From positions 9,881,501 through 9,945,500 of the forward strand of contig NC_084808.1 of NCBI RefSeq assembly GCF_963583255.1: 64,000 nucleotides of DNA, in the 5' to 3' direction. This DNA is from Pyrus communis (Eukaryota; Streptophyta; Magnoliopsida; Rosales; Rosaceae). The notes under the pieces were generated by a model that saw only the letters and a program-made list of their open reading frames with translations, ran no database searches and was not told the DNA's origin. Position numbers and translations under genes: made by a program. Positions 4,767 through 58,738 of the stretch are shown here, piece by piece; position 1 is the first letter of the stretch; the number at the start of each line of letters is the position of its first letter.

Positions 4767-4774
4767 TATAAATA
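4767..4774 (+). promoter_or_regulatory. TATA box of the 5' LTR
   Basis: TATAAATA sits in CTCCTATAAATACCC and is repeated at 11451-11458 in the 3' LTR. Position in the middle of the LTR and the pyrimidine-rich leader after it fit the U3/R boundary of a plant LTR promoter. Confidence 0.6.
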
Positions 4775-4965
4775 CCCTTGCATTCATTCATTCAAAACCA
4801 TCTCATTTCATACACAACACACCACAAACACTTCCATTCCTTCTCTTTGCCGTGAGTTCCCTTGTAATCCAAACACCATTTTTCCATTTCCCTATTAATC
4901 CAAACACCACTCCCCAAACCATTCACACCATCAAACTATCCTTAGACCTTGTGCTACAACAACGA

Positions 4966-5165
4966 GGAAGAGAAGAGTGCCTAAACGTTCATACAATTCA
5001 AGTTTGAGTTGTTGGAATGTTTAGGTGTTTCTTTGATTTCAATGTTTAAATTCAATTCTCTTTGTTTGTACGTATGAGGAATGGAAGAGAAGAGTGCCTA
5101 AACGTTCATACAATTCAAGTTTGAGTTGTTGGAATGTTTAGGTATTTCTTTGATTTCAAAGTTAT
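4966..5165 (+). repeat. Direct duplication inside the LTR
   Basis: A unit of about 80 bp beginning GGAAGAGAAGAGTGCC occurs at 4966 and again at 5083 (period 117), almost unchanged. The same pair is present in the 3' LTR. Confidence 0.8.
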
Positions 5166-5279
5166 AATAAACTAAACCCCCTTTGGCTAGGGGGTGATTC
5201 GAAATATATGTTTATGCTTGCATTTTGATTTGATTAATTCTAATTACGTTTCATAAGTTGTGGATTCAATTTGTTTAAC

Positions 5280-6420: not shown

Positions 6421-6698
6421 CTTCATGCCATTCCATCAATTTCATATTTACATTCTGTCTAGTTTATTTAACTTGTTTCGTTATTTCAATTTTCGTATAA
6501 ACTTAAATCCCCCTTTACTTTAATGTCAATTTAGTTAGAAATACATTTATTTTGTGTTTTTACGTTTTTTTGAGTCAAATCCAAGTGATTAACAATCCCT
6601 CCTAATCCCCGGTCCAGAACGATCCCTACTTATACATATACTACAATTTGACGAAAAGAGGGTTTAATTTGTGTGCGTATAAATCACGCATCAAATTT

Positions 6699-6716
6699 TG
6701 GCGCCGTTGCCGGGGA
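6699..6716 (+). other. Primer binding site (tRNA-Asp type)
   Basis: TGGCGCCGTTGCCGGGGA begins five bases after the 5' LTR end. It is complementary to the CCA-bearing 3' end of plant tRNA-Asp, the primer used by Athila-type elements. Confidence 0.8.
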
Positions 6717-6936
6717 TTAGAAAATTTGCTAATCCCTTGGATTGTTTTATTTTCGTTTGTTTTTATTCCAGATTCTTAATGTTGTTTTGTTTCTTGTTCT
6801 AGGTACTAGTTTATGACTCGGAGTTCTCATCCGATTCGTAAACATATCCTGGAGTGATTGGGTTCTTCGTCCGGCTGCAAGACGTAAAAGAAAGTGCTAC
6901 TTGGGAGGCAACCCAATGCATTTTGAAAAAAAAAAA

Positions 6937-6970
<34 letters not shown>

Positions 6971-6974
6971 GTGG

Positions 6975-10718: not shown

Positions 10719-13376
10719 TGATGGGAGCATATTCATGCGACTTAAATAGCTTGTTCTCGTGCATTTACGTTATGTTTCTTTAGTTATTTTAGTACTTTAA
10801 GCTATTTTCGTGTGTTTGTAGGTCCAAAGGGCTAAAGGAGCAAAAAGATGCATTTTGGAGACTTTTGGAGACTTTTGGGCTAAGGACGGATAGCTTATGC
10901 TTGAAGCCAAAGTGTTGGACGAAATTGAAGACCTAATTAAAGACCAAAGTGTTGGAACCTTGTTCCCTTTAGTTTTAGGACATTTAAACCTTTCCTTTAT
11001 CCTTAGCCGTGCATAACATTCCAACATTCCACACTATCACATATCATACACCACATATCACTTATCACATATCATTCACCACTTATCATATCATACACTC
11101 AATCACTTATCACATATCACTTATCACACACCACATATCACTTATCACTTATCACATATCACTTACCACTTATCATTCACCACATATCATTCACCACTTA
11201 TCATATCATACATTCATTTATCACTTATCATAATCATTCACTTATCACTTAACATATCATACACTTATCACTTATCACTCATAATCATCTACACATTTCA
11301 ACCATTTAAACACATGTACTTCACCTACAACATCCACCTACTTCACCTACAACATCCACCTACTTCACCTACAACCTCCACTTACTTCACCAACCTCACA
11401 CACTTACTTCACCTACAAATGACATAGCCATATGTTCCCTCCACTACTCCTATAAATACCCTTGCATTCATTCATTCAAAACCATCTCATTTCATACACA
11501 ACACACCACAAACACTTCCATTCCTTCTCTTTGCCGTGAGTTCCCTTGTAATCCAAACACCATTTTTCCATTTCCCTATTAATCCAAACACCACTCCCCA
11601 AACCATTCACACCATCAAACTATCCTTAGACCTTGTGCTACAACAACGAGGAAGAGAAGAGTGCCTAAACGTTCATACAATTCAAGTTTGAGTTGTTGGA
11701 ATGTTTAGGTGTTTCTTTGATTTCAATGTTTAAATTCAATTCTCTTTGTTTGTACGTATGAGGAATGGAAGAGAAGAGTGCCTAAACGTTCATACAATTC
11801 AAGTTTGAGTTGTTGGAATGTTTAGGTATTTCTTTGATTTCAAAGTTATAATAAACTAAACCCCCCTTGGCTAGGGGGGATTCGAAATAAATGTTTATGC
11901 TTGCATTTTGATTTGATTACTTCTAATTACGTTTCATAAGTTGTGGATTCAATTTGTTTAACCGTTTGATTGATAACTTATTTATGAATGTTTATTAAGA
12001 ATGCGCGCTTAATTTTCATGCATCAATATGACGCTAGAATATAAGTGAGTTTCACCTAATAGTTACGAACTTATATTCACAAGTAGTGGAGGTTGCTTAT
12101 AAACAATCGCGTTAAATAAATTCTTGGCATAAGTTTCATGCGTATTCCATAGTAACGAATGCCTCGTCAACACTTAAAGTTTTCATGATGCTTAATGATC
12201 TTTGATTGTATCTTTATTGTGCTTTTCACGTAAAGGACTTTTGGAGAATGTTGTGAATTGCGTTGCGCTAACCCATCCAATTCATTAACTTAAGGAAAAC
12301 TTGACGGTTAATTTAAGCGGACCTAATTGACCCGGGGCGTTGAGAATTAATGATTTGTTGAAATGCAATTGGAAATCGTTTTATTATGCAAGTATAACAT
12401 ATGTGGAGATGAACCCCGTAGCTAACTTTCCATCCATTCAATTCCATCCATTTGTTCTTTCTTTTCTTGTTTCTGTTTTCATGTTTAATTTAACTTGTTA
12501 TTCAATTATGTTAAACATGTGAAACTAATTTCTTTTTAGTTAGAGGCGATTTTGAAGCCATGGACATATGTTGGTTATGATTTGATTTACTCCAGTTATG
12601 AATTCATGAACTTTAGATGTGGGTTACTTTTCTGTTTTGATTAAGAACTTGTTTATGTATGTGGGTTGAGGGTCGACACTTAATTTGCATGCCTAAGACT
12701 TGATGCTAGGATATAAGGGAATTTCACCTAATCGTTATGAACTTATATTCATGAGTAGTAAAAATCGCTAGTCACGATTGTGTTTAGTAAACCCTAGGCT
12801 GGATTAACATGCGTATTCCATAGTTATGAATGCCTAGTCAATGTTTATGATTTCCGTTGAACTTAATGATCTTTGTTGAATGTCTCTATCATGCGTATTC
12901 CATGTGAGAGACTTTGATTAGGAATAATTTGGTTGTAATGCGTATCCCATTCAATCCAATGAATCTAGGGAAATCTGAAGGTTAATTTAAGCGGACCTAA
13001 TTAACTTGGAGCATTGTCATTCATCGTTTGTTGAAGTCATAACTGGGAGTCAAATTATATGCTTATGTTCATGTGTGGATAAGGAACCCTCTAACTAGTT
13101 TTTCTTCATGCCATTCCATCAATTTCATATTTACATTCTGTCTAGTTTATTTAACTTGTTTCGTTATTTCAATTTTCGTATAAACTTAAATCCCCCTTTA
13201 CTTTAATGTCAATTTAGTTAGAAATACATTTATTTTGTGTTTTTACGTTTTTTTGAGTCAAATCCAAGTGATTAACAATCCCTCCTAATCCCCGGTCCAG
13301 AACGATCCCTACTTATACATATACTACAATTTGACGAAAAGAGGGTTTAATTTGTGTGCGTATAAATCACGCATCA
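10719..13376 (+). repeat. 3' LTR of Athila-like element
   Basis: The LTR is 2658 bp, starts TGATGGGAGC and ends CGCATCA, and is followed immediately by the GTTCT duplication at 13377. It is nearly identical to 4041-6693. Confidence 0.92.
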
Positions 13377-13381
13377 GTTCT

Positions 13382-17265: not shown

Positions 17266-20196
17266 TTTTCCAGAACTATTCTTTATTGAATTGCATCATG
17301 GTAGGGAGATAAGTTATGACATGTACGTTGGGGGAAAAGTGACATATATAGATAACTGTGATAAAGACCTCATGTCATTGCCGGTGATAGATGATATGGT
17401 GGAGGCAGTTGGATACATTGAGCGGTTCATGAACTATTATTTCAAGATTCCCGACATGGACTTTTCCAATGGTTTGAAGCAGATTCAAAGTGATTCCAAT
17501 GTTCAGTCCATGTGCAATTTTGTTCCAAAAGATAAAGTGATTGAGATGTACATCGAAGAATTGACGACAGAAGAAGTCGTAACCCAAGAGCAATAGTTTC
17601 TGAAGTCCATGGAAGTGACAGGCCCAAGTAAAGTGGTTATTGAAGAGATAACTAGTTCAGAAGAGGATGTTGGGCCAACAACACTTAAACCAATAAGATC
17701 TAAGGGCTTACTAGCTATTGAAGGGCTAGAAGTGGATGATTGTTGCACATCTCAAGTAGTGTAAACATGTGTAACTGAGGTAGGAGAGATAAATGTTGAA
17801 GAAGGGAATGGTCAGAAAAAGAAAAATTGTGAAGGGCCAAAGAAGAGTAAGGGGAAATTTGTGGCTGAGGTAGGTGAAGGGGATGTAGGCGAAGGGGATA
17901 CTGAAGTATTCTTTGATATACCTATTAGTTTGGAGGGGAATGTTGAAGAAGAGAATGAAGAAGCTACTGAAGAAGATGATAGTGACTTTGAAGAGAGTGA
18001 ATATGGGAATGATGCTGATAACCCAATGTTTTCCAAGTTTGATGAAAAGGATTCTAAGCAAAGAAGTGCAAGGCAATCTGAGCAAAGCCGGGAAAGAGAA
18101 GAAGAGCAAAGGGAAGAAGAATTTGATACAGCAAATGTGGAACAAAATGTGGTTGAGATCCAGACTATAACTCTGATGCTCTTGAAAGTGTACACTCTTC
18201 GGATGATGAAGGAGGCAAAAAACATGAGCGATTTCCAGAGTTCAATGAGAAAACTGATATGAAGAATCCCACTCTTACACTCGGGCTTGTTTTCAGGAAT
18301 CATGTCCAATTCAAGCGAGGTGTCATCATGTACTCCCTAGTGAATGGATATGGAGAAATCCATTTTCCTAGGAATGAGAAATTGAAAGTCGTAGCAAAGT
18401 GTGCAAAAGGGTGCCCTTGGAAGTGTTGTGCTGGAAAAATGTATGGTTCGAACAGCACACAGATCAATACCATACTTGATGAACACACATATGGGAGAAC
18501 TTGGGCAAACAAGAACACAAAGTCCCCTTTGCTGACTGATTTGTACATGGACAGGATAAAACTGAATCCCACATGGTCTGTGGATTCTTTTTTGGCAATT
18601 GTCAAATCAGAGTGGAATCACGGTTGTACAAAGAGGAAGGCTTACATGGCTTTAGATAAGGCTTTAAAGATCATTGAGGGAAAACATGCAGAGCAGTACA
18701 CAAAGTTGTGGGACTTTGCTGAGGAAGTGAAGAAGACTAACCCTGGAAGCACAGTGAAGGTGAAGTTGGATAGAGGGAGGTTCCAAAGGATATATGTGTG
18801 CTTGGGGGCTTGTAAAAAGGGGTTTAAGTCAGGGTGCAGACCATTGATAGGATTAGATGGGTGTCATTTAAAGAGTGTATATGGAGGTCAACTACTTTGT
18901 GTTGTTGGCATTGACCCAAATGATGAAACATGGGTTATAGCGTATGCAGTTGTAGAAATGGAGAATAAGTCCAGTTGGATTTGGTTCTTAGAGTTATTAG
19001 CCGTTGATGTTGGGATTGTCAATCAAAGGGGATGGACATTTATCAGTGATCAGCAAAAGGGGTTAATTCCAACCTTTAAAAAAGTCCTCCCTAATTCCCA
19101 CCACATATTTTGTATGAGACATCTGCATACCGACTTCAGAAATCTGTTCAAAGGGAAAACATTGAAGGATGCTTTGTGGTCAGTAGCCAGAACAACAACA
19201 GTTCCTTACTTCAAAAAAGCAATGGAGAATCTGAAGAAGCTCGATGAAAAGCTCTACGATTGGTTGGTGAAGTTGCCTGCACATCATTGGAGCAAGTCCC
19301 ATTTTGAAACACATCTCAAGTGTGACATGTTGCTGAACAATCTCTGTGACAGTTTCAATGCTGTCATACTTATACCGAGACAACAACCTATTATCACCAT
19401 GTTGCTCTTTATTCATACACTCTTGATGAAGAGAATTCAGATGAGAAGGGATATAATGGCGAACAAAGTTGGAGATCTCTGTCCTAAAATCAAGAAAAAG
19501 TTGGAGGAAGCCAAAATTGAGAGTGGCAGGTGCATTGCACAATGGTCAGGGGGCTCTAAATTTCAAGTTGATGCTGGAGGGGGGGAGCAATATGTGGTTG
19601 ACTTGGTTGAGAAGACCCGTTTTTGCAGAAAATATGCCTTGACAGGAATCCCATGCAACCATGCAATATCGGCCATAAATTTCAAGAAGGAAAAACCGGA
19701 GGACTATGTCAATGCTTATTATTCGAAGGCGCGGTACTTAGAGTTGTATTCTTATTTAGTAATGCCAATGAGTGAGATGTCTATGTAGGAGGAAACTGAT
19801 AAACCACCAACATTGCCTCCAACATATACAAGGCAACTTGGAAGGCCGAGGAAGAAGAGAAATAAGGAAGCTGCTGAGAGGGACAATGAAGGTGAACAAA
19901 CTCCCACAAACCCAACCAATAATCCTCGAGGTCTTCCTCAACCACTTAAGCTAGGAAGGCAAGGCCAAGGCACTTTGAAATGTACCATATGCAAAAAGGA
20001 AGGTCATAATGCAAGAACCCATCATAGACATCTTCCTCCAAGGGACAAACAGGTAACATTTTCTACTTTATATGATTTTTTAAATCCCTTAACATCATAT
20101 TACACTCTTAATCCTTTTAACATCATTTTCTACTTTGTAGGCATCCACATCTGCTCAAGGACAAACTGCACCTAAAAAGAGGATAAGGAAAACAAA
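17266..20196 (+). pseudogene. MURA-type MULE transposase, inactivated
   Basis: The reading frame after a splice-like TTTCAG at 17265 starts with a PB1-like N-terminus (FFIELHHGREISYDMYVGG) typical of plant MULE proteins. An acidic linker follows. The core (18259-19788) contains the MuDR N-terminal zinc-ribbon-like segment (CAKGCPWKC), then the DDE transposase with GLDGCHLK and FISDQQKGL as the two Asp motifs and CMRHLHTDF. A SWIM motif (GIPCNHAISAI), an AT-hook (GRPRKKR) and a zinc knuckle (CTICKKEGHN) complete the order. Breaks: in-frame stops at 17594 and 17762, a frame change near 18260, and a stop at 19786 before the AT-hook. The first Cys of the SWIM CxC is Arg (KTRFCRKY), and the knuckle lacks its last Cys. 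The 20141-20196 stretch looks like a small further exon. It cannot encode an active transposase as it stands. Confidence 0.88.
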
Positions 20197-24644: not shown

Positions 24645-27600
24645 ATGCTCACCCTCACTTCTCTCCTCCTGCGCCCCGCCCGCCACTTCGTCAAACCCCT
24701 ATCCACCGGAACCGCCTCCACCGCCACCACTCCTCCGCCTCCTCTCACCGTCCCCCTCTCTCACCCCATCTACCTCGTATGGTCCGCCAACACCTCCCTC
24801 GGCAAAACCCTAGTCTCCACCGGCCTCGCCGCCTCCTCTCTCCTCTCCAGTCGCCACCCCCGCCGCCGCTCTTTCCTCTATCTCAAGCCCATCCAAACCG
24901 GCTACCCGGCCGACTCCGACTCCCATTTCGTCTTCTCCAAACTCACCTCCCTCGCCCCCCGCCGCTCTCCCCACCTCTCTCTCCTCGCCTCCAATCACGT
25001 TCTCAAGGCCTCTGCCTCCGCCGCCAGCTCCATCTTAGCCCCCCAAATTCTGCCAAATCACGGAAAGGGCATGTGTGATTTGGACTGGTGTGAAGAGAGC
25101 AGGGTTGATGGTGGCAATTCTGGGAATGCACCAAATTCGGAGCTGGTTTGTAAGACAATGTACGCTTGGGGAGACCCTGTCTCACCGCACTTAGCGGCTG
25201 AGAGAGAAAGCGGTGCGGTGGAGGACTCGACCTTGCTCGAATTGCTGCAGAGGTGTTTGGACATTGGGGTTGGAAAGGAGAAAATGGATTCTTTCTGTGT
25301 GGTTGAGACCGCTGGTGGGGTTGCTAGTCCAGGGCCTTCTGGATCGCTTCAATGTGACTTGTACAGGTACTTCAAATTCGTAGTTGATAACATATGCTCT
25401 GTATATCCTTGTTATTGTTATTCTTAATCAGTCAAATCATAAATGTGAGAACTTGGTGCATGTTTGCAGACCTTTCCGTTTACCTGCAATTCTTGTTGGA
25501 GATGGACGGCTAGGTGGTATTTCCGGAACCATTTCAGCTTATGAAACTTTGAAACTCAGAGGTTATGATGTTGTTGCTGTTGTTCTTGAGGATCATGGCC
25601 TTGTAAATGAGGTTCCGTTAGCATCATATTTTCGAAACAGGTAATCTGATTATTTTTTTATTTATTTTTATAGTGGCTATATACTGGTCTGTATGTACCT
25701 ATATGTCAATATGTGGACATAAATACGCAAACATGGCTCGCATATTTGCATTTCATTGTCTTTGAACGGATATGATAATTATGTTTTTGATGTCAGACGT
25801 GTTTAATATCCTTCTACTCATGTAAAAATCCAGATATGGTAACTGTTATAATTTTTTTTAGTGTTCCAGTACTTGTGCTGCCGCCTATTCCACAAGACTT
25901 GTCAGATGACCTTGTGGAATGGTATGACGATACTCAGAATGTATTTGATTCGCTGATGGAAATAATGCTATTAGCCCACTCTGAACGAATCAAGAGATTG
26001 CATAACATGCCGAAAAGGGCTGTAGATGTTTTTTGGTGGCCATTTACTCAGCACACATTTATACCAGAAGGAGATGTTACAGTGATTGATTCACGCTGTG
26101 GTGAAAACTTTTCAGTCTTCAAGGTTTGTGTATGTGGCTTCACAAATTACCAATGAAGGCAGAATATGTCATGCTTGACTGTTTGTTGTTTCTTCCTAGG
26201 TGATAATTATAATCGACTCTTTCCTAGCATGCCTACCTAACTTTTGTTTTATTTCATCTTAGGCTCGGAATGATGATGTTATGATTCAACAATTTGACGC
26301 ATGTGCAAGTTGGTGGACTCAGGGACCCGATGCTACTTTACAGGTCATCTTTATAAATATCTTTCTGTTAAATGTTTTCACTGGGACTCGATTTCAATCT
26401 AGATAATTGGTGGTCAGACTTTGACATAGCTCACAATCATCGTGCAAATTTATAATTTCCAAATCCTTGATTGTGTCATTCCTGGAATGGATGCCTATGA
26501 TAGTATGCATCTTGTATGTTTATTATGCTGTTGCCCATTTGCATCGTTGTTGATTCATTCACTGTCTTTTTGCTTAGACTATTTATAATGTTGTCCATTC
26601 GCACCTTTTGGTCTATCCAACTGGTGTTGAACCCTCTCATTGAGAGCAGAGATTTTCTGTTATTAGTTTTTGGCTTCCATATGGATGGTCAGGACAAAGA
26701 CTGTTCCCCCTGTGTTCACACTTTTCAATCTTTCTTGGGTTTTTTCGTTTCTTTGTGTTTTTAGTTTTGGAAGTTATATCTCATCGACACTGATTGTGCC
26801 TCCCGGTTGTTTCAATAAATTTATTAATAGAAGTACCAAACAATAATATGGAATGCCTGAAGTTTTTTAATCTGGTTTTTGTTTAGGTGGTTTCAGACTG
26901 AGCTTGCAAGGGATATGGGTTATGCAGCTGCAAGATTTGGGCATGTGATGTTTCCTGAGAATGTTTATGAGCCAGCCTTAGAATGTGCTGAACTTTTGCT
27001 TGAAGGTGTTGGAAAAGGTTGTTACGGTGTCGCTTTTATTCCTTTTATTTCTTTTCTTGTACGCTGTTTTCTGTATTCTTAAAACATACTTGTTCTAACT
27101 TTTCAGTGCTTTATTATTTGGGTAATGAATCTTTTATTTGAGTATTATTTGTGGTACATGCGGAATCAAAGTTTGTTTTAAAATATCTTAAATATGTCAT
27201 CTATATTCTATCTATTTTCCTTATTTTTTCTACATTTGCGTATATGTGACTGATGACCATTTATGCAGGTTGGGCTTCTCGAACATATTTTTCGGATAAT
27301 GGATCGACAGCAATTGAGATTGCATTGAAGATGGCGTTCCGTAAATTCTCTTATGAACATGGAATTCTTTTAGATCATCTCAAGGATAACTCAGCTGAGA
27401 GACATCCGGAGCTTGTGGTGGGTCACATTAATTCTTCTCTTCATCTGCATAACCACTGTCTTTATCAGAGTAGACAAGTACTTCTAATGTGTGATTTCTA
27501 ACTTGATAAAAGCTCTGTTCCCTGAAACCAGTAAAAGAAACAGTTCTGTTGGTTAAAAAAGTCCTAAGCTTCTCTGCCTGGCGCACATGGTTATTCAACC

Positions 27601-47676: not shown

Positions 47677-47895
47677 TAAATGACAATGTAGACATCGAAA
47701 TTTCGGTGAAATGAATGTTAACCAATAATTAAAATTTCAACGCTCACGTGTCACATAAATTTTACATGTAGCGTGTGACTCAACAAAAAATCGAAATAAA
47801 TTGGAAAGGTCATCAAATAGGACACGTGTCAATATCTGGCAGAAATGATTTATTTCATCTGATTATTTAAATCCAAAAATCAAGTTTTGGAATTC

Positions 47896-47902
47896 TATAA
47901 AT
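47896..47902 (+). promoter_or_regulatory. TATA box of the 5' LTR
   Basis: TATAAAT in GGAATTCTATAAATGGGAGG, repeated at 57928-57934 in the 3' LTR. It is the only convincing TATA box in the LTR. Confidence 0.6.
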
Positions 47903-48125
47903 GGGAGGCCAAGGCATTCATTTCAGGGGGGAAGGAGAAGGAAGGAAAGGGGGGGAAGGAGAAGGAAGGAGGAGGAGGAAAGGAAAGAGAAAAAAAGGAA
48001 GAAGAAGAGAAAGAAAGAAGGGAATTTACATCACACCAAAACCTTGAAGCCTTGAAACTCTAAAGCTCTCAAGCAAAATCCCGAAGGATCAAGAAAACAC
48101 TCTTCGTTCTTCGTTAAACCCTCCT

Positions 48126-48570
48126 TCAAGGTCAAGCCCCAACGGCCCTTGAAGAACTTCCGCCGACTCAAGATCAAGCCCCAACGGCCCTTGAAGAACT
48201 TCCGCCGACTCAAGATCAAGCCCCGACGGCCCCTTGAAGAAAGTGTTCATCATCCGTTCGTCCTAAGATCAAGCCCCAACGGCCCTTTGGATCAACAACC
48301 TCAACAAATCCACACATCCAATCAGTCTTCAAGATTAGGCCCAAAAGCCCTTGAAGATCCGCTCATCCATCAACCCTCAAGATCAAGCCCCGACGGCCCC
48401 TTGAAGAAATCCATACACCCAGTCTTCAAGATTAGGCCCAAAAGCCCTTGAAGATCCGCTCATCCATCAACCTTCAAGATCAAGCCCAAAAGCCCTCGAA
48501 GATCCGTTCATCAACTGTTCATCCCTAGATCAAGCCCCGACGGCCCTTTGGATCAACAGCTCATCCACAA
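48126..48570 (+). repeat. 42 bp repeat array in the LTR
   Basis: TCAAG-TCAAGCCCC-ACGGCCC starts at 48126, 48168 and 48210 with almost perfect 42 bp period. Five or six diverged copies follow to about 48570, some reading GATTAGGCCCAAAAGCCC. The same core appears at 57350-57640 inside the element and, reversed, at 455-760. Confidence 0.85.
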
Positions 48571-48705
48571 ACCTACACCCTACGAAGATAGAATCAGAGG
48601 ATCAAATTACAAAGAGATTGTAACCCCAAAAATCATTAAACACAAAATATATTTTGTGCACGTATTCTTGTTTCTTGTTTCAGGAACTTTCCATGTTTAC
48701 AAATT

Positions 48706-48722
48706 TGGCACGCCCGGTGGGA
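48706..48722 (+). other. Putative primer binding site
   Basis: TGGCACGCCCGGTGGGA starts four bases after the 5' LTR. The position and TGG start fit a primer site. I could not assign the tRNA from memory. It differs from the tRNA-Asp site of the Athila-like element. Confidence 0.65.
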
Positions 48723-48773
48723 TAATCTCTACCTCTCATCTCTGTCTCCGTTCAAGATATTCAAGCACAGTCC

Positions 48774-51491
48774 ATGGCTTCAAACAAAGAACAAATCATG
48801 ACTATCGGCACTACCTCCATTGAAAAACAGCTGGTTCAGATGAAGGAAACAATTGCAAGGCTGATAAAGACTGCAGAGGAGAAAAACTTGCAAACCGCCG
48901 GACTCATCAACCGTCTGGAGGCGCAACATGGTGTCATAGTGAAACCAAGCTCTCTTCCAACTAAGAGGACCGAAGAAGGCTTCAACCCAAATGCCTACGA
49001 ACTCATGTCAAAGGCTGGACATGACTTTGCTTCCTCTTCAAATCTTGGAAAGAAGGTTTCAAACACCGTCAACGACAAAGATCGCGACCTCACCGAGACT
49101 CAAAAGAAGTTGAAGGAGCATGATTATGGAGTTGACAACAACAAGGCTGGACTTGGCTACACACCAAATGCACCCGTGAAGATTTCAAGCAAAGTGAAGA
49201 AAGCTAGCGCTCAACACATCAGCGTGAGCATTGAACAAGACCAAGAAGAGCCTAAACCCTCCCCTCGGACGTCGGTCTTCAATAGGATGAGTCATTCAAG
49301 CTCCAGAACTTCAGTGCTTAATCGCATTAGTGGTCAAGACCGAACCTCTGTCTTCAAGAGGCTTAACGCGCCGACATCCCAAAGCTCTGTTTTTGAAAGG
49401 TTGTTAAAGCCTAAGAAACAAAGCAACACAGCTATCTCTCCTCTGCGACGATCAGCTTCAGAAATATTTGAAGATAATGGTAAGCCTTTTGGAAAGAGGA
49501 AGACAACCCCAAAGGGAGAAAAGCTCGATGGGTTAGGAGAAAAAGACGACGCTCGAAGCTTGATTCCTTCAAGGATGGAGCGCCAAGCAATCCTAGAGGT
49601 CGACACAAAAGGACCACTGAAGGTAAGGAGGCGCATCATCGTCCCCACTGGCAAATCTTCATGCCAACAAACTCAAGAGAACGGCACTGAAGAGGAGATC
49701 CAAGATGTTTTCTACATCACGGTTCAAGAAGGTAAAGAAGACGAAAGCCCGAGGAAATACTCAGAGTCCCTACTCTCCGACCCTGATCCAAGCGGCAGTA
49801 CAACCATGCAAGTCATGACCACTGGAGCAACTTCAATCGAGGAGCAGCTAGCTCGGATGAATGAAGCAATCGCAAAGCTCACACGGACTGTGGAAGAGAA
49901 GGACTTGCAGATTGCCGCACTTGTCAACCAACTAGATGCGCTGCCCGACGTAAAAGTTGACCCAAATATTGGCCTATTAAAGAAAGAAGGCGACGAAGAA
50001 GAGGAGCCACCAGTGGAGAAAGTGGAAGAGAAGCCGAAGCTAGACCAAGCAACGGCATTCATGGGATCTCTCTCTATCCAGCAGCTACAGGAGATGATCG
50101 CAAGCACTGTCAAGACACAGTACGAAGGAAGCTCGCATGACTCCGCACTGTACTCAAAGCCTTACTCCAAGGAGATTGATGCTTTGAAGATGCCAAGGGG
50201 TTATCAGCCCCCAAAATTCATGCAGTTCGATGGAAAAGGCAACCCAAAGCAACATGTCGCCCATTTCAGTGAAACTTGCAACAATGCTGGGACAGAGGGA
50301 GACTACCTCGTCAAACAGTTCGTGCGTTCGCTGAAAAGTAACGCTTTTGACTGGTACACTGACCTCGAACCTGAGTCTATCAACAGTTGGGACCAGCTAG
50401 AAAGGGAATTCCTCAACCTTTTCTACAGCACTCGTCGTACTGTAAGCATGCTAGAGCTGACCAGTACGAAACAGTGGAAAGATGAACCTGTCATCGACTA
50501 CATAAATAGATGGCGTTCTTTAAGTCTGGATTGCAAAGATCGGCTTTCTGAAACCTCTGCCATTGAGATGTGCGTTCAAGGCATGCAATGGGGATTACAC
50601 TACATCCTTCAAGGCATCAAACCACGAACATTTGAGGAGTTAGCCACCCGCGCCCATGATATGGAGTTAAGCATCACCCGTCATGGGAAGAAAGAACAGA
50701 TCGCCGACTACAAGAATGACAAAGTTTTGGGGCCCAAGGTGGATAAGGCTGCGTGGAAACCCACCAAGGAAGCAATGACGGTCAACACAACTCCAGTCAA
50801 AACCCATACACGAGGCAAGGCGATTCAAACCGAAGCTTTTCGTGATCAAGAGATACGTAAACGCACTTTGAAAGAGCTTGAGGAGAAGACTTATCCATTC
50901 CCCGACTCTGACGTGGTTGCCATGTTAGATGACTTGCTGGAAAAAAAGGTGATCGACCTACCTGAGTGTAAACGGCCGGAAGAGATGAACCGTACTGACA
51001 GTCCAAGGTACTGTAAATTCCACCGCTTCATTGGTCATCCGACGGAAAAGTGCTTTGTGCTAAAAGATCTCATCATGAAGTTGGCTCAGAAAGGGATCAT
51101 CGAGCTAGATCTTAATGATGTGGTGAAATCAAACTATACCTCCGTCACTTCTGGCTCTTTGAACTCAAAATCTTCACCGCAACCGCTGGGGGCATGCTCC
51201 AAAACCATGTCAGTCAAGTCAAGTGAAGTTGAAGGATGGACTTATGTCACTCCAAAGAAAATGTACAAGAAACATAGGTCTCCTCCACAAGTTCACCAAT
51301 CGGAAAGGGGGCAAAGCAGCTACCGTCAACCTTCAAAGCTACATGAAAGTGTTGAGGATGATGAAGTTATGACACAAAGATCGTCCGTTGCCATCACGAT
51401 GCGCGATTTCTTCCCCAAAGACTTCTTCAATCACTCAGTCAAGACTCCTTGCTATGAAGATTGCAAGGAATGCCTCTCTAAGATCGTTTGA
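48774..51491 (+). CDS. Retrotransposon Gag polyprotein, no pol
   Basis: The intact frame encodes 905 residues and begins 72 bases after the LTR. Residues about 473-640 form a Retrotrans_gag domain ([39 protein letters not shown], then [14 protein letters not shown]). The C-terminal part holds [20 protein letters not shown], usual after gag in this family of plant elements. The N-terminal 470 residues are charged, with coiled-coil potential. Residues 1-60 and 345-400 are related ([18 protein letters not shown] versus [18 protein letters not shown]), which indicates an internal duplication. Gag ends in a normal stop and nothing resembling protease follows. It probably packages the element's RNA, with enzymes supplied by a partner. 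Confidence 0.9.
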
Positions 51492-51880
51492 CAAATTCAA
51501 AACGCTCCTCGTTCGCACGAGCCTAAAAGGCGACAACAAACGCTCCTTGTCTGCACGAGCTGAAACTGCAAACGGCACCAAAAGCTCCTTGTCTGCACGA
51601 GCCTAAAAGGTGACAACAAACGCTCCTGGCCCGCAAGAGCATAAACTGTGTACGGCAAAATCATCATCAAAACCATCACTCATTCGAACTACGTTATGAC
51701 TTGATCTCTTCTTTGGAAGAGTGTAGGCAACTTGAAACTTCAAAACTTCAAGTACAGTCACATCAAAATAAATAAATATTTCATTAAAGAAAGTCAATTT
51801 TATTACAAAAGAAAAGAAAAGAAAAAAAAAAAAATACATATGTTACTATGTATTAGGAAAAATATATAAATATATTTTCC

Positions 51881-51913
<33 letters not shown>

Positions 51914-51962
51914 TACACACATGTTAAAGTGGGTTTGCCCACACTTAAAACCCATGCCAACT

Positions 51963-52004
<42 letters not shown>

Positions 52005-52005
52005 A
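51492..52005 (+). repeat. Post-gag tandem repeats and A-rich tracts
   Basis: 51500-51660 contains about two units of an 80 bp repeat (GCACGAGCCTAAAAGG-GACAACAAACGCTCC at 51515 and 51595). Poly-A, (AT)n and a second long A-run (about 51966-52003) follow. Apparent frames there are Lys or Phe runs only. The long A-run lies directly before the captured gene fragments. Confidence 0.75.
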
Positions 52006-52351
52006 AACAGAAGTTGAAGACCACAAAAATGGAGCAGCCCAAATCCAAGCCCAAGCCAGCGAGCCTAGCAACAAATTCGGGCCCAGCTCTCAAAGCCCAT
52101 CCTCACTCCGCCAAACTCCACCTGCTACATATGGTGCGCACACCCGGAGCAAGGTGGCCTCCACCACCAGTCACCATCTCCCCTGGGAATCCTGTCCATA
52201 CTGGTATCACCTTTTTGGTCACTTACATCCCCATAAAGATCCCTAAATTTTGCCAGGTTGCTAGATGCAGATGTTCTATCCTTGGTTACATCTCTCTGTG
52301 GGCTCGAATGAAGAGTGCTGCCCGCTTGCAAACCCAACTTCTCTATCCGCC

Positions 52352-52560
52352 ATGGACTCTTATGAAGCTACAAGAATTGTGTTTTCGAGGATCCAAAATT
52401 TGGACCCAGAAAATGCTTAAAAAATCATGGGTCTGCTTCTGATACAGGACCATGGCGAGAAGGAAATGATAAGGCTAGCTTTTGGACCTGAAGCTTTTCT
52501 CCACTCGGTCATTCTCAAGTCAAGGAAGGAGCTGGGAGTGCCCCTATCATCAAACTCTTC
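52352..52560 (+). pseudogene. Captured CCCH zinc-finger protein N-terminus
   Basis: Starts ATGGACTCTTATGAAGC and reads MDSYEATRIVFSRIQNLDPE, then [20 protein letters not shown] and [19 protein letters not shown]. This is the N-terminal domain of the plant CCCH zinc-finger/RRM family (AtC3H46-like). One in-frame stop (TAA at residue 23) interrupts it. The zinc finger and RRM are absent. Sequence before it (52006-52351) may be the matching 5' leader, but I cannot identify it. Confidence 0.75.
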
Positions 52561-52683
52561 TTCTCTCCTTCTGCTTTATCTCTCTCTCTCTACCAATCGG
52601 CCATGAGAGCTAAACCAAAAGCTAAAGCTCGATAATCTTTCACTTCATTTTTTTTAATTTTTTGATTTGGGTTCGACCAGATT

Positions 52684-52930
52684 ATGGGGAACGGCTTCGG
52701 GAAAGTGAGCGGGTGCTTCACCGGCGTCAAGGAAGGCCGCCGTCACGGCAGACACGACGAGTCAGTTTTAGAATCGAACCAATACGACGAGGGACTCGGC
52801 CACTCCTTCTGCTATGTCCGACCCGACCCAGCTTGGCTCGCATCCTCCAAAGTCCACTCCGAAGAAGCAACCACCTTCAGAACCATCTCTGGCGCTTCCG
52901 TCAGCGCCAATAACTCCACCCCCATACTTT
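52684..52930 (+). pseudogene. Captured POLTERGEIST-like PP2C N-terminus
   Basis: Reads MGNGFGKVSGCFTG, then DEGLGHSFCYVRPDP, SSKVHSEEATTFRTISGASV and SANNSTP. These are hallmark N-terminal segments of the POL/PLL clade of plant protein phosphatase 2C, including the N-terminal Gly that can be myristoylated. The catalytic domain is absent. The preceding 120 bp look like a native 5' UTR with CT-rich sequence. The frame then runs into the next fragment and stops near 53020. Confidence 0.85.
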
Positions 52931-52982
52931 TACTCACACTCCCCACTCGCACTGATCAAATTTCAACAAAAAAAACCACCAA

Positions 52983-53311
52983 ATGGGTGTTCAAATACAC
53001 AATTTGTCTCTGTCCTCCCTGATTATTTTGATAATTTCAGCTGCAAGTCTGCAACTTTTAGCAGAATCCAAGACTTTCTGGGCCGACATTGAAGCTCTCA
53101 AGGAGTTCAAGAACTCACTCAACACCGATTCAGTGAGTCCCGGCTCGTGCGTCAGCTCCTGGGACCTCACCCTCGACCCCTGCGACAACCTCTTCAGCGA
53201 CCGATTCACCTGTGGCTTCCGAAGCGAACCGGTCGACAACTCCTCGTCCGCCAGCCGGCTCACCGAGCTCACCCTTGACCAGGCCGCTCACTCCGGCTCG
53301 CCCGCCTCCTC
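52983..53311 (+). pseudogene. Captured LRR protein N-terminus
   Basis: Reads a signal-peptide-like start (LSSLIILIISAASLQLLA), then KTFWADIEALKEFKNSLN, SPGSCVSSWDLTLDPCDNLF and RLTELTLDQAAHSGS. This is the LRRNT_2-type N-terminus of plant leucine-rich-repeat proteins (PII-2-like or receptor-like). The repeats themselves are missing. It starts inside the tail of the PP2C-derived frame, in a different reading frame. Confidence 0.8.
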
Positions 53312-53590
53312 CGCTTCCGGTCGATTGCAAAACCATGGCGGTCGCTCATCGACAGCTCATACTTCGTCCATCTCCACCTCACGCAATCGGCAAAGTCCAA
53401 ATCGCATCTCGGTTTGATTCTCAGAAAGGAATCTGACCTCTACTGCATCAGTTTCGACTCCTTAAACGACGCCGTCGAGCTCAATCATCCACTCATGTGC
53501 TACAGCAATCGAATTCGCGTTTTGGGATCCTGCAACGGCCTTCTGTGCCTCTGTAACGTGGCGGAAGACATCGCTCTTTGGAGCCCAACG
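53312..53590 (+). pseudogene. Captured F-box/kelch protein fragment
   Basis: In frame from about 53313: RFRSIAKPWRSLIDSSYFV, HLHLTQSAKSKSHLGLIL, SDLYCISFDSL, then NHPLMCYSNRIRV and VLGSCNGLLCLCN. This is the segment between the F-box and the F-box-associated/kelch domain in CPR1/CPR30-type proteins. The F-box start and the C-terminal domain are missing. No stop codon interrupts the fragment. Confidence 0.8.
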
Positions 53591-53879
53591 TCCGAAGCTC
53601 CTCTCCTTAACGCCTCCGCTGCTCGCGTCACTCTCCAACAGCAGCACAGAAGACGAAGAAGAGAGAGAGAAGCTGACTGGAAGCAGAAGCAGCACCGTCT
53701 GGACAGTACCACTGAAGTGAAGGTGCTTGCTCATCGGAGAAGAAGCTACAAGCCTCCTCACTGCTAAAGTTGTGTTCCTCCACCTTCACGGAAGGCTGAT
53801 AGCTCTTTTGGAACGGAAAGCAGTTCGTTGACGATGATGACGACAAGGATTATTAAACAAACATTTTGAAAAGCTTATC
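53591..53879 (+). other. Unassigned captured sequence
   Basis: GC-rich, with Arg/Glu-rich frames (RRRREREADWKQKQ) and then loss of an open frame. Composition is unlike the surrounding retroelement and like the host fragments. I do not recognise a protein. Confidence 0.4.
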
Positions 53880-54254
53880 CAGTGTGACACACGACTTTGT
53901 GTCTTAAGCCAGCAGCCAGAGATTGTTTTGAAATCACCATATTTTGAACCATGCTCTTCTGCTTTTGAAGATCCAGGCGAATGCAAAGGTCATGGTTTTG
54001 GTCAACTGGGGAATGGACCAAATGGTAAAGGTTCGTCTGTTGCTGGTTTTCAAGATATAGCATCACCATCTGCAAGCCAGTCATCTTCTTTGAATATTGA
54101 CCAGCAGGATACAGCTTCTATGGCATTCGAATATCAGTCCAGAGAAGCGCCTTCCCCCAGCTCAGTTATGGATGCTCGTGCAATGGAAGGAAATGACAGT
54201 TCAGAAGCTGTTAATTCCAGGGAGGAGCAAATGGAGCTCAAACTCCAACAGTAG
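53880..54254 (+). pseudogene. Captured unknown protein fragment
   Basis: An open frame reads PEIVLKSPYFEPCSSAFEDP, then GHGFGQLGNGPNGKG, SPSASQSSSLNIDQQDTASM and EEQMELKLQQ before a stop. It is rich in Ser, Gln and Asp with low-complexity character, like a disordered regulatory protein. I do not recognise the family. Base composition is close to neutral plant coding sequence and unlike the adjacent gag. Confidence 0.5.
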
Positions 54255-54560
54255 CTTGTTCGCTGCCCGTCAACGCCTCCACCGATTGCAGCAGCAACCA
54301 TCCTTGCCGTCTTTGCCGCTGTCAACTCCTCCCGCGGAGTGTTCCTTCTTCATCTCCACCGATGGAGATCTCACCAAAACGCAGCAACAGCATCCACTAA
54401 CTACCTCGAGTTCGTCACCCTGCCCACCATGATCAAAATCAACGAAGAGCTTCATTGACCGCTGTCAAACGACTAGCCGGTCTTCAAACTCGACGCTTTG
54501 CACTACTTCAAGCTCTGGCTGCTTCTGCACTTCCTCCATGGCTGCTGCCTGTGAATGTGA
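54255..54560 (+). other. Unassigned GC-rich captured sequence
   Basis: Frames are open on both strands but none is recognisable. One frame reads NYLEFVTLPTMIKINEELH, which could be host coding sequence. The segment is followed by a short direct repeat (CTGCTGCCTGTGAATGTGATTAAC at about 54542 and 54604). Confidence 0.35.
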
Positions 54561-54733
54561 TTAACAAAAAACAAAGTTTGTCAACTCACATCTGCTTGCC
54601 TCTGCTGCTGCCTGTGAATGTGATTAACAAAAACAAAGTTTGTCAACTCACACCCAAAGACCTCCTCCGTCTTCTCTCGAACTCGGCCTGGGTTTTCACC
54701 CACGAACTCAGCCTTGCAGATGGCCATATAAAG

Positions 54734-54768
<35 letters not shown>

Positions 54769-55164
54769 GCAATGATGATGCTGGGAAGCATCTTTCAAAA
54801 GAATAATAAAATAAAAAAAAAATAAATAAAAAGAAAAAAAAAATATATATATATATAATAAAAAGAAAGAAAAAAAAAAACAATGATGGTGCTTCTGGCA
54901 CCATCTGAAATATATATATATATATAAATCTTGGTGGATCATAACCACCGAAAGCAAAGAAAAGAAAAAAATAATAATAATAAAAAAAAAAGAGGATCTT
55001 GGTGCACCCGCACCATGTGGAAAAAAAAAATATATATATATATATATATATGCGCTCTATTTAGCACATTATGCTAAATAAAATAAAGTTTATTTATTGA
55101 TATCTCTGATAAATTACAGATATATGCTTACATATGAAAAAAAAAAAGAAATACAAGATTGGAG
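54561..55164 (+). repeat. Simple-repeat-rich spacer
   Basis: Long A-runs (about 54729-54765), several (AT)n tracts (54843-54858, 54910-54928, 55030-55052) and short unique islands of the type GATGGTGCTTCTGGCACCATC. No gene. Confidence 0.7.
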
Positions 55165-57265
55165 CTTTCACAAAGGTTGTTCACGTGAAGCCCCATTACT
55201 TGGCAAAACTCTAGAAGCGGAAGGCATCGGAGCAGAAGGCATTGGAGCGGGAGGCATCAAAGAAGAGGCCTCAATACTTGGTGGAAAGCTAGATGAGCCA
55301 GGAAAAATATGCCTCTGGAAGAAAGCCGCAAGCCTTTGACGGTCACTTTGACGGTCACTTTGCATTCGACCATTGGATTCTTGCAGCTCATCAAGCTTCC
55401 TCTTCATGCCCGACGAATAGTTATTTGCAAGCACATGCAAACTTCTATTCTCGTACTTAAGCAGTTTGATCTCTTGCTTAAGACTTTCCACCTCCGCCAT
55501 CAAGGATTCAACTTGGCGGGAGCGAGCAAGTAGGCGTTGGCCCATGTTGGACACAGAGCCTGCACACTGAACACTGAGAGCGAGGGACTCTTGAACGGCC
55601 AACTCATCGGACCGTCCTGAAAGCAGCCGACTATCTTCAGGAGTGAGGAGGTTCCTAGCTACTATCGTAGCTGTTGTTGCGTCCTTCATCACAGAGTCTT
55701 CACCTGTAAGAGGACCGTTAGAAGATAAAAAGAAGGGCGCCATACACTACCTTGATGGGGCACAACCGGATCGCTGCTGAGACTCAAATCTAAGCAAAGG
55801 TTCGATGAGTTAGTCATTTTTCAAAGGTGTTCAAAGAGAAGGGATGGAGTAAAATTTCAAAGGGTCGGAGACGATTTTTCAAGAATGGGCAATCTTCAGA
55901 GTGTGAATGTTGGGGTGATCAATACCGCTATAAAAAGCCAAGGCGACACGACCACCGATTCAAAAATCCGGATTTTCCTGCGTGAAGTTTGGCGACGCGT
56001 TCGCGGTTTTCAGAAAACGCGTTCAACTTTGTCAAAAGATATCTGACAAAGTCGAAAACACGTGGAGGCCATCATCGCAACTACACATCTTTAGCCGACA
56101 AGCGCAAAATTCGGCGACGCTTTCTCTGCTTTTCAGAAAACGCGTGCAACTTTGTCAAAAGTGGCGCTCGTTCAGAAATCGAAGAGGCGTCGTTCAGAAA
56201 TCGAAGAGGCGTCGTTCAGATATCGAAGAGACGTTTGTCGACAAGGGTAAAAGAACGGTACCACCACTTGCTATTGAGAAATCCCTATACATGTCGACCT
56301 TCATCTCTTATGGCAAGGCAGACCTGAAGAAAATGCCCAACTCTTCCTCACCTCTGAGGGCGCACTCCCAGCAAAGCCTCTCGAAATACACAATTCTTCT
56401 TCTTCCTTTGAGAAAACCTATTCAACCTTTGAAGATACCAGATGCCTGGAGTACAGATGACCCAGGAGGAAACGATAGATTGAAGCATGTGCTGATTCAT
56501 TCACCGCTTCTTCAAAAGCAAAGGTATCTCATATCATCAAGGGCGAAAGCATAGGTATCTCATATCATGTTTTTTCCCTATCTTTTCCTTTGCCCTTGTT
56601 CTCACTTGCCAAGACAAGGACAGAGGAAGCAATATGTCGGAACCTCCACTCAAACCAGTTGCCACCAAGGAGTGAAGCACCATTTAAATGCAAAGGTTGC
56701 ATTCAACTCCTGCATCGGAGGACAAATACTACAAGAGAAGATGCTAAACCTGCATAAGGAAATACCACTTCTGCAAAGGGGAGCAAGTAAGGCAAGTGAA
56801 AATGATACATCGAAGCATGTGGAGACAAGCACAACAAATATATGTGCTGATTCATTCGCTGCTTCTTCGAAAGCAAAGGTATCTCATATCATGCTTTTTC
56901 CCTGTCTTTTCCTTTGTCTTTGTTATTACTCGCATGGCAAAGTGAAAGAGAGCAGTCAGCGGCACTTGGAGTCAGTCTTCCGATCTGGAACCGACTACCT
57001 GGAATCTATTCCTGATTGCTTACCTAGTATTGCTCTCGAGTAGTCATCTTCAACGGTTGATACACTGCCAGAGAAGGGACAAGGAAACTTCAATCTTTCC
57101 AACCCTCTTCAATACGAATTGGAAAGATTGAACAAAGAAACAGGTCAGCACCTCCACCTCGTACTTGCCTGCCATATCCTGAAACCGCTCGTAGACCTTC
57201 GGGGAAGACCAAAAGAATCCTGCTGCCCAGTTCAAGAGTAGCACAAAGGAAAATCAACGATTGGA
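55165..57265. repeat. Module shared with the Athila-like element
   Basis: Counterpart of 6975-8790, in the same orientation relative to the element. It has extra sequence at about 56570-56900 and 57080-57190 that the other copy lacks. Similarity covers both the antisense ORF and the non-coding part. Confidence 0.85.
55168..55743 (-). CDS. Antisense coiled-coil ORF, second copy
   Basis: The frame encodes 191 residues on the strand opposite to gag. It is homologous to 6982-7659 over nearly its whole length, including GPLTGEDSVM, the heptad-rich ESLMAEVESLKQEIKLLKYE and the C-terminal PMPSAPMPSA repeats. A one-base deletion at about 55730 (a run of five A where the other copy has AAGAAA) throws the original N-terminus out of frame. 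The present start is an internal ATG, and the first 27 residues of the longer copy are lost or would need another start. Function unknown. Confidence 0.5.
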   Translation of the reverse strand: MAPFFLSSNGPLTGEDSVMKDATTATIVARNLLTPEDSRLLSGRSDELAVQESLALSVQCAGSVSNMGQRLLARSRQVESLMAEVESLKQEIKLLKYENRSLHVLANNYSSGMKRKLDELQESNGRMQSDRQSDRQRLAAFFQRHIFPGSSSFPPSIEASSLMPPAPMPSAPMPSASRVLPSNGASREQPL

Positions 57266-57704
57266 GGAAACCAAAAGAATCCTCCAGTCCAGTTCAAGAG
57301 TAGCACAAAGGAAAATCAACGATTGGAGGAAACCAGAAAATCTTCCAGTCGAACTCAAGATCAAGCCTCAATGGCCCTTGAAGAAATCACAAGTCCGATT
57401 CAAAATCAAGTGTTCACCACCCTTGAATCAAATTCAACTCCAGATAAAAGGAGTAAGTTCAGACCTTCGGAGGAGACCAAAAGAATCTTCCAGCCCAGTT
57501 CAAGATTAAGCTTGTGGGAAATCAACGATTGGAGGAAACCAGAAAATCTTCCAGTCGAACTCAAGATCAAGCCTCAATGGCCCTTGAAGAAATTTCCAGC
57601 TCAATTCAAGATCAAGCCTCGACGGCCCTTGGGTTGACATCTACATTAAGGGACTTCAAAACGCATCTTCTACACGTGACAAGCACATGTCAACGACGCG
57701 CCTT
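57266..57704 (+). repeat. Tandem repeats before the polypurine tract
   Basis: Blocks of AACGATTGGAGGAAACCAGAAA and CAAGATCAAGCCTCAATGGC recur at about 57310-57380 and 57520-57590 (period near 210). They share the CAAGATCAAGCC...GGCCCTTGAAG core with the LTR array. Open frames here are repeat translations. Confidence 0.7.
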
Positions 57705-57718
57705 GAAGTGGGGGCATT
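57705..57718 (+). other. Polypurine tract
   Basis: GAAGTGGGGGCATT immediately precedes the 3' LTR. Confidence 0.7.
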
Positions 57719-58733
57719 TGTAGACATCGAAATTTCGGTGAAATGAATGTTAACCAATAATTAAAATTTCAACGCTCACGTGTCACATAAATTTTACATG
57801 TAGCGTGTGACTCAACAAAAAATCGAAATAAATTGGAAAGGTCATCAAATAGGACACGTGTCAATATCTGGTAGAAATGATTTATTTCATCTGATTATTT
57901 AAATCCAAAAATCAAGTTTTGGAATTCTATAAATGGGAGGCCAAGGCATTCATTTCAGGGGGGAAGGAGAAGGAAGGAAAGGGGGGGAAGGAGAAGGAAG
58001 GAGGAGGAGGAAAGGAAAGAGAAAAAAAGGAAGAAGAAGAGAAAGAAAGAAGGGAATTTACATCACACCAAAACCTTGAAGCCTTGAAACTCTAAAGCTC
58101 TCAAGCAAAATCCCGAAGGATCAAGAAAACACTCTTCGTTCTTCGTTAAACCCTCCTTCAAGGTCAAGCCCCAACGGCCCTTGAAGAACTTCCGCCGACT
58201 CAAGATCAAGCCCCAACGGCCCTTGAAGAACTTCCGCCGACTCAAGATCAAGCCCCGACGGCCCCTTGAAGAAAGTGTTCATCATCCGTTCGTCCTAAGA
58301 TCAAGCCCCAACGGCCCTTTGGATCAACAACCTCAACAAATCCACACATCCAATCAGTCTTCAAGATTAGGCCCAAAAGCCCTTGAAGATCCGCTCATCC
58401 ATCAACCCTCAAGATCAAGCCCCGACGGCCCCTTGAAGAAATCCATACACCCAGTCTTCAAGATTAGGCCCAAAAGCCCTTGAAGATCCGCTCATCCATC
58501 AACCTTCAAGATCAAGCCCAAAAGCCCTCGAAGATCCGTTCATCAACTGTTCATCCCTAGATCAAGCCCCGACGGCCCTTTGGATCAACAGCTCATCCAC
58601 AAACCTACACCCTACGAAGATAGAATCAGAGGATCAAATTACAAAGAGATTGTAACCCCAAAAATCATTAAACACAAAATATATTTTGTGCACGTATTCT
58701 TGTTTCTTGTTTCAGGAACTTTCCGTGTTTACA
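57719..58733 (+). repeat. 3' LTR of the gag-only element
   Basis: 1015 bp, same length as the 5' LTR, followed by GACAA. Two differences from the 5' copy were noticed (CTGGTAG for CTGGCAG; CCGTG for CCATG). Confidence 0.92.
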
Positions 58734-58738
58734 GACAA

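Follow-up and report, generated by a model that had tools for sequence, protein, structure and literature searches.

How do pieces of several unrelated host genes come to lie end to end inside one retrotransposon? The question is raised by a stretch of 64,000 nucleotides from Pyrus communis (C6:9881501-9945500, hereafter the window), in which one complete gag-only long terminal repeat (LTR) element spans 47687-58733. Between its gag and an antisense open reading frame (ORF) of the element lies a region filled with host gene fragments, which we call the cargo slot. An initial annotation had described this array as a chain of first-exon fragments, all in sense orientation. Our comparison of sequences makes it very likely that the slot, which lies between gag/pol and the antisense ORF in the whole family of related elements, was filled by template switching of reverse transcriptase (RT).

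Host gene pieces and their joints

Donors were sought in the DNA of the own genome (487 Mb, 29 contigs); 54 places were listed, and 40 of 212 candidates were scored. The cargo of the window copy consists of the following pieces, where E_ marks copies of the element and L numbers mark loci.

52159-52341: cargo piece 0b, matching a host locus on C6 (L032) with 6 mismatches and 5 gap columns in 184
52331-52566, plus strand: CCCH zinc-finger gene (AtC3H53-like), end of the 5′ untranslated region (5′-UTR) and about codons 1-72, with one in-frame stop
52556-52922, plus strand: PP2C gene (presumably of the POL/PLL-like subfamily), 5′-UTR and codons 1-80, donor L006 (C8)
52914-53301, plus strand: LRR protein gene, 5′-UTR and about codons 1-106, donor L004 (C1)
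53298-53588, plus strand: CPR1-like F-box gene, about residues 39-135, ATG not included, donor L008 (C3)
53589-53697: cargo piece 5a, inside a block shared with copy E_C10a
53698-53849, minus strand: C-terminal end of a gene that we take to be HD-Zip-like, donor L031 (C16), antisense by reading frames
53844-54226, plus strand: TRF2/HOY1 PH-like protein gene, about residues 248-376, two exons joined, donor L005 (C4)
54221-54368, plus strand: cargo piece 7a, also present in the copies E_C10b (100% identity) and L033 (99.3%)

Five host genes were identified in the array, namely those for the CCCH zinc finger, the PP2C, the LRR protein, the CPR1-like F-box protein and TRF2/HOY1-PH. Five of the six oriented pieces are sense; the sixth, the HD-Zip-like piece, is antisense, so that the uniform sense orientation of the initial annotation does not hold. 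Its placement of the CCCH, PP2C, LRR and F-box pieces was confirmed by matches to plant proteins: the best match reaches 92% amino acid identity for CCCH (52352-52543) and, among the proteins listed, 79% for PP2C (52684-52926), while the LRR piece (52983-53282) is 97% identical to a protein of Pyrus communis and 95% to one of Malus baccata, and the F-box piece (53324-53596) is 90% identical to two Malus proteins. The Pfam family PF24818 was found among the listed protein matches of the TRF2/HOY1 PH-like piece. At the DNA level, the best donors are 96% (CCCH), 93% (PP2C), 97% (LRR), 98% (F-box) and 100% (TRF2/HOY1-PH) identical. They lie on five contigs (C10, C8, C1, C3 and C4, respectively), which supports serial capture of unrelated host genes, and an arrangement of the donors as neighbours in the same order was not seen among them. 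The CCCH donor, L034 on C10, is intact over the stretch read; two other candidates, C3:10790155 and C7:23336828, were rejected, as both are further element copies. The PP2C coding sequence (52684-52911) differs from L006 at a single position, counted on the alignment, and insertions and deletions occur in the UTR.

The view that all pieces are N-termini from first exons fails for the F-box piece, which by a hand count on P0008 (409 residues) starts at about residue 39 (the protein alignments begin at residue 47), and for the TRF2/HOY1 piece, which is internal and crosses an exon junction. In three pieces the 5′-UTR and the ATG are included. Further pieces had also been expected as far as about 54560; more pieces are indeed present, one of them the TRF2/HOY1 PH-like piece, but the cargo ends at about 54370 and the last 180 bp or so are the element's own, with sequence common to other copies from about 54380. 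The leader up to about 52100 resembles the element's own sequence by eye. For pieces 5a and 7a the own-genome search gave no host donor; L033 was rejected as a donor of 7a, being an element copy itself. A composite protein search (7995 candidates scored, not every frame queried) gave no match for pieces 0, 5 and 7 among the 120 of 146 hits that were listed. PDB searches with the PP2C and LRR pieces returned nothing, and neither did a search of plasmid DNA.

The TRF2/HOY1 piece tells what kind of template was copied. At 54165/54166 it reads AGCTCAG/TTATGG, whereas in donor L005 the exon end AGCTCAG is followed by GTATAATAAATG, and the next exon begins 556 bp on, after ...CCTATCCTATTAG. This 556-bp GT...AG intron is precisely absent from the element, and the flanking exon sequences are identical to the donor at 322/322 (exon a) and 59/61 (exon b) positions counted on the alignments. 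The precise loss of the intron indicates that the piece was copied from spliced RNA. Annotated TRF2/HOY1 proteins read through the exon junction, as does the window piece. The junction is also where five ORFs predicted from public contigs depart from the TRF2/HOY1 protein sequence. The eight residues that come after it are missing from two Prunus protein models, as an alternative acceptor would give.

At the joints, neighbouring donors share short runs of sequence. The shared run measures 3 nt at 0b/CCCH, 4 nt at CCCH/PP2C, 9 nt at PP2C/LRR (CTCCACCCC is common to both), 4 nt at LRR/F-box (TCGC), 7 nt at HD-Zip-like/TRF2 and 6 nt at TRF2/7a. These six values add up to 33 nt, compared to a mean of 4.17 and a maximum of 18 for random break points in the same sequences; none of 40,000 random sets reached 33. 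Joint positions were set by eye on alignments. The test as reported uses the intact CCCH gene L034; with an element copy in place of this CCCH gene, the values were 5, 9, 9, 4, 7 and 6.

Spliced templates and shared runs at the joints fit a course of events during reverse transcription. Cellular mRNAs would be packaged by chance together with element RNA. During minus-strand synthesis the enzyme would jump several times between the mRNAs and the element RNA at such microhomologies, and it would finally return to element RNA. Run-off at mRNA 5′ ends followed by a jump would explain why several pieces begin in the 5′-UTR. Co-packaged element RNAs would later recombine, by which cargo blocks could be reshuffled and passed between pol-bearing and gag-only members. 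A template-switching model in which several switches are possible has already been published (PMC5408686; this and all other papers are cited from the parts consulted).

One slot, many cargoes

The 20 stretches fetched contain 15 other copies of the element, and all counts are lower bounds. Each of the 15 matches the 3′ LTR, the tail and the antisense-ORF region of the window element, and each carries cargo in the same slot between the end of gag/pol and the tail. The array, which the initial annotation had considered unusual, is therefore serial as described but not a one-off. The slot measures about 1.2 to 3.4 kb per copy (in E_C10a about 1.8 kb, following its pol), and a run of at least 10 A lies within 150 nt before it in 15 of the 16 copies. 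The further loci L029, L030 and L033 are also element copies.

In the fetched stretches, 11 of the 15 copies show a gag capsid domain without a pol domain, and four show pol domains without gag, with only the last part of pol in E_C10b. Once upstream DNA was added, E_C5 and E_C7 were found to hold both gag and pol (in E_C7 pol is in two parts), and a two-part system of gag-only and pol-only elements was rejected on this ground. For E_C10a, no gag capsid match was found within the 13 kb examined. Its pol carries RT at 717-876, RNase H within 939-1068, RVT_3 at 1120-1239 and parts of the integrase within 1337-1505, an order that we take to be a mark of the Tat lineage. We assign the family to the Ty3/gypsy LTR retrotransposons, with gag-only and gag-pol members. 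Differences between the two LTRs, computed only where both were in hand, amount to 2/980 in E_C2a, 3/971 in E_C12, 3/848 in E_C17 (37 gap columns) and 21/970 in E_C3a.

At least 13 different cargoes are present among the 16 slots if E_C4 and E_C5 are counted as one. The same cargo is found in E_C3b and E_C9 (99.4% identical) and in E_C12 and E_C2b (95.5%). E_C4 and E_C5 share 989 bp (99.3%), and E_C1b and E_C3b share 1055 bp (99.0%). The remaining slots share parts with others, or no sharing was found.

To describe the cargo of the other copies, stop-free segments of at least 60 amino acids from 14 slots were compared with Pfam. The near-duplicates E_C9 and E_C2b were excluded, and one E_C10a segment that was split between loci was dropped. 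Of the 127 sense and 115 antisense segments available, 60 each were used, picked mostly by length with repeats removed. Among the sense segments 16 families were matched, compared to none among the 60 antisense segments. The sense matches include Aux/IAA (E value 4e-71), triosephosphate isomerase (4e-56), HMG-CoA reductase (2e-35) and ATP synthase subunit C (1e-32), as well as TPP-enzyme domains, UbiA, acid phosphatase, EAF, ribosomal protein L3, AtC3H46 and LRR; 5 of the 16 Pfam names are LRR or the window's own pieces. By frame, we take the ATP synthase subunit C cargo to be a V-ATPase proteolipid and the TPP-enzyme cargo to be pyruvate decarboxylase. A leucine aminopeptidase match, checked in one copy, was below its cut-off. 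Cargo of E_C12 and E_C17 was presumptively named MAX2, MSBP1 and DAHP synthase by eye, unconfirmed by search. Orientation in the other copies was judged by Pfam and frames and not by donor loci.

The window copy shares its cargo with other copies block by block. At the left of its slot, 851 bp match E_C2a with 98.7% identity; in the right part, 795 bp match the pol-bearing E_C10a with 98.6% identity. A search for the same joint order had been proposed in the initial annotation, and it succeeded on both sides: E_C2a has the joints 0b/CCCH and CCCH/PP2C, E_C10a has the joints 5a/HD-Zip-like, HD-Zip-like/TRF2 and TRF2/7a, and both copies lie on other contigs. The three middle joints (PP2C/LRR, LRR/F-box and F-box/5a) were found in the window copy only, among the 16 compared. 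The shared blocks indicate that cargo has been recombined between element lineages as well as captured, and that the window copy is a mosaic. E_C17, E_C3a and E_C2a contain the LRR piece as well, but its ends fall at other positions of the donor there; these may be separate captures or trimmed descendants. In E_C14 the orientation of the HD-Zip-like piece is reversed compared to the window copy.

Two copies carry an in-frame fusion. In the gag-only E_C4 and the gag-pol E_C5, Aux/IAA and HMG-CoA reductase sequences form an open frame of 313 amino acids (L026:4900-5838 and L025:4927-5865, both minus strand). The two fusions differ at 7 of 939 sites, 4 of them protein-changing.

The slot might also be a standing recombination hot spot at which the family keeps swapping pieces of host mRNAs while it spreads, a tentative extension that we consider somewhat short of an even chance. 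The A-tract and a hairpin region between gag/pol and the antisense ORF would then make RT leave the element RNA. If so, the family would be an ongoing exon-shuffling machine in which pieces are traded between gag-pol and gag-only members, and open fusions like that of Aux/IAA and HMG-CoA reductase would arise now and then.

Routes by which the slot could be filled

Several points weigh against filling by template switching. The reading was reached by comparing sequences. Intron loss is seen at one junction, the sole testable one in the array, and no intron interrupts the donors over the CCCH, PP2C, LRR and F-box stretches, which are thus uninformative on splicing. In the joint test, another element copy stood in for the donor of 7a at the TRF2/7a joint, and the borders at about 52100-52159, 53588, 53697 and 54368-54380, for which there is no outside donor, lie outside the test. 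The 5′ run-off step draws on the three pieces with 5′-UTR and ATG. One oriented piece (53698-53849) is antisense, and the stop-free segments themselves are biased in length toward sense, with 15,746 amino acids in the 127 sense segments compared to 10,355 in the 115 antisense segments.

Among the other explanations, a selected cassette survives best: the chimeric proteins or regulatory RNAs of the slot would help the element or its host. The chimeric gene of the maize element Bs1 is reportedly transcribed and translated (PMC13317346), and the 313-amino-acid fusion has stayed open in E_C4 and E_C5. On the other hand, most copies differ in their cargo, which is not what a selected cassette would show. 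In the window copy the pieces are mutually out of frame, with one in-frame stop and one piece antisense, and for this reason its cargo is probably non-functional freight. We regard a selected cassette as unlikely.

Serial arrays of gene fragments are also known from Pack-MULEs and Helitrons. The array could have arrived as DNA with such a transposon, by its insertion into the element or an ancestor of it; in maize, 1194 gene-fragment captures were counted for Helitrons and 462 for other DNA transposons (PMC2774510). This route seems very improbable here. The donor intron is exactly absent at the testable junction, Pfam families are found in sense but not in antisense segments (16 versus 0), and the borders of the slot are much the same in copies with different cargo. 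In 51480-55200 there are 72 inverted-repeat pairs; of the 25 longest, which are A/T-rich, none frames the cargo, and Helitron ends were not searched.

Microhomology likewise occurs in break repair that inserts filler DNA. Scraps of cDNA could have been copied into the element during repair of double-strand breaks in the genome and not during its reverse transcription; in mouse zygotes, reverse-transcribed spliced mRNA was reportedly captured at breaks (PMC4516963). However, break repair would not favour one slot in 16 copies, and cargo blocks shared inside other copies imply passage through later transposition, so that filler DNA is an explanation to which we give hardly any credence.

An assembly artefact that joined unrelated sequences would account for joints found in the window copy alone, as are PP2C/LRR, LRR/F-box and F-box/5a. 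The initial annotation had itself named such an artefact as a way in which it could fail. The joints to the left and right, within the 851 bp and the 795 bp mentioned above, recur in E_C2a and E_C10a on two other contigs, the target site duplication (TSD) and the LTRs are intact, and the joints lie in microhomology; an artefact is thus highly improbable. Transduction of neighbouring genes by 3′ read-through of the element transcript, known for plant LTR elements (PMC13317346), can be practically dismissed, as the cargo is internal, upstream of the tail and the 3′ LTR, the best donors lie on different contigs and the intron is absent.

Precedents, the element and its surroundings

The closest precedent is maize Bs1, an LTR element without full pol. 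The pear element shows two marks of gene-transducing elements of this kind, fragments from several unrelated host genes between its LTRs and, at one junction, capture via spliced RNA. Bs1 holds transduced pieces of three unrelated host genes (PMC13317346), compared to five identified genes and further pieces in the window copy. Furthermore, the pear family carries other cargo in the same slot, gag-pol members included, and its blocks are reshuffled.

TR-GAG elements consist of LTRs and a gag ORF and have no pol. Their internal region is otherwise non-coding, which may not belong to the definition. The window element resembles them in its two LTRs, TSD and gag ORF and in the absence of a pol match, with a primer-binding site and a polypurine tract recognized by look only. 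Its internal region, in contrast, contains about 2.3 kb of host cargo and the antisense ORF, and its close relatives include gag-pol copies with the slot. We have not filed it as TR-GAG.

Most reports of gene capture by plant LTR elements concern a single gene in each element. Fragments of host genes within such elements are known, as here, from maize, rice, sorghum and pepper (PMC2774510, PMC3726574, PMC5664825). In maize, under the conditions used, none of 425 intact LTR elements held fragments of more than one standard nuclear gene (PMC2774510). The work on retroduplication in pepper describes intron loss, and single LTR elements with two or three genes appear in its methods (PMC5664825). 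Retand-type elements share with the pear element a long 3′ region with an antisense ORF (PMC11963269), and in the pol of its relatives RT and RNase H are followed by another domain of the RNase H type and by integrase, which we take to be the Tat/Retand order. Unlike in Retand, the window antisense ORF is without a TRP28 match, and a slot for host cargo is not described for Retand in the part of the source consulted (PMC11963269). The chimeric plant LTR elements Veju and BARE-2 have been explained by RNA switching in one particle; the sequence joined to them comes from another retrotransposon or from unknown DNA and not from a series of host mRNAs (PMC13317346). A family with a variable host-cargo slot was not found in the literature searched (titles and starts of abstracts, few subscription journals), which is no proof of novelty. 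What is new in the pear family is that the slot is fixed, that its cargo is so broad in kind and that cargo is exchanged between copies. The family acts as a natural system for shuffling gene fragments and offers a natural series in which the entry of mRNAs into particles and the jump sites of RT can be followed; it also bears on how often fused reading frames arise and are used. For gene annotation it is a warning, as fragments of housekeeping genes, triosephosphate isomerase among them, turn up repeatedly within elements.

Apart from the cargo, the window element has the following parts.

47682-47686: left TSD, GACAA, from the sequence
47687-48701, plus strand: 5′ LTR, TG...CA, 2 mismatches in 1015 to the 3′ LTR
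48704-48721, plus strand: stretch TTTGGCACGCCCGGTGGG, presumably the primer-binding site, by look
48774-51491, plus strand: gag ORF, 905 amino acids, Retrotrans_gag with E 4.3e-13 (Pfam)
51964-52003, plus strand: A-tract 5′ of the cargo slot, from the sequence
54380-54733, plus strand: tail of the element itself, where the sequence common to the compared copies begins
55168-55743, minus strand: antisense ORF of the element, 191 amino acids
57706-57718, plus strand: stretch AAGTGGGGGCATT, which we take to be the polypurine tract, by look
57719-58733, plus strand: 3′ LTR, pairing with the 5′ LTR
58734-58738: right TSD, GACAA, from the sequence

The match of other copies to the tail begins anywhere from 54221 to 54421. 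No match to RT, RNase H or integrase was found in the window element (tblastn with a relative's domains, E 1e-10). These features bear out the earlier description as a young gag-only LTR element. The LTR divergence of 0.2% corresponds to about 76,000 years at a rate of 1.3e-8 (PMC5664825), and the rate in pear may be lower. Its insertion was recent and normal for an LTR element.

The antisense ORF is open (163-225 amino acids) in 17 of 17 copies, namely the window element, its 15 relatives and a piece in a second element at 4041-13377. Its median ratio of non-synonymous to synonymous changes (dN/dS) is 0.22 (range 0.06-0.62; the 131 of 136 pairs with dS > 0.02), a value that suggests an antisense gene under purifying selection. 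In a Pfam scan of the window antisense ORF only, no match above cut-off was found, and none to TRP28 at E up to 1. The gag ORF, too, seems to be a chimera; compared with itself at E 1e-5, it showed no internal repeat. Its residues 56-198 (48939-49368) are 82% identical to residues 406-548 of the pol ORF of a relative, and its residues 2-59 match two relatives with 52-55% identity, at the same place in both (from residue 324 on).

The second LTR element in the window, at 4041-13377, has LTRs of about 2.66 kb that are 99.4% identical and a TSD, GTTCT, recognized by eye. Within it, 6981-8787 is a sense piece about 79.5% identical to 55167-57336 that starts just past an A-tract, and the counterpart of the antisense ORF lies at 6982-7659 on the minus strand. 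Judged by its composition, it is another chimeric retroelement. At the left edge of the window, 309-757 (minus strand) contains the tail and the start of the LTR of another related element in reverse orientation. Two ORFs were named by eye only: one of 509 amino acids at 18259-19788 (plus strand) is MULE transposase-like, and one of 260 amino acids at 24645-25427 (plus strand) is BIO3-BIO1-like.

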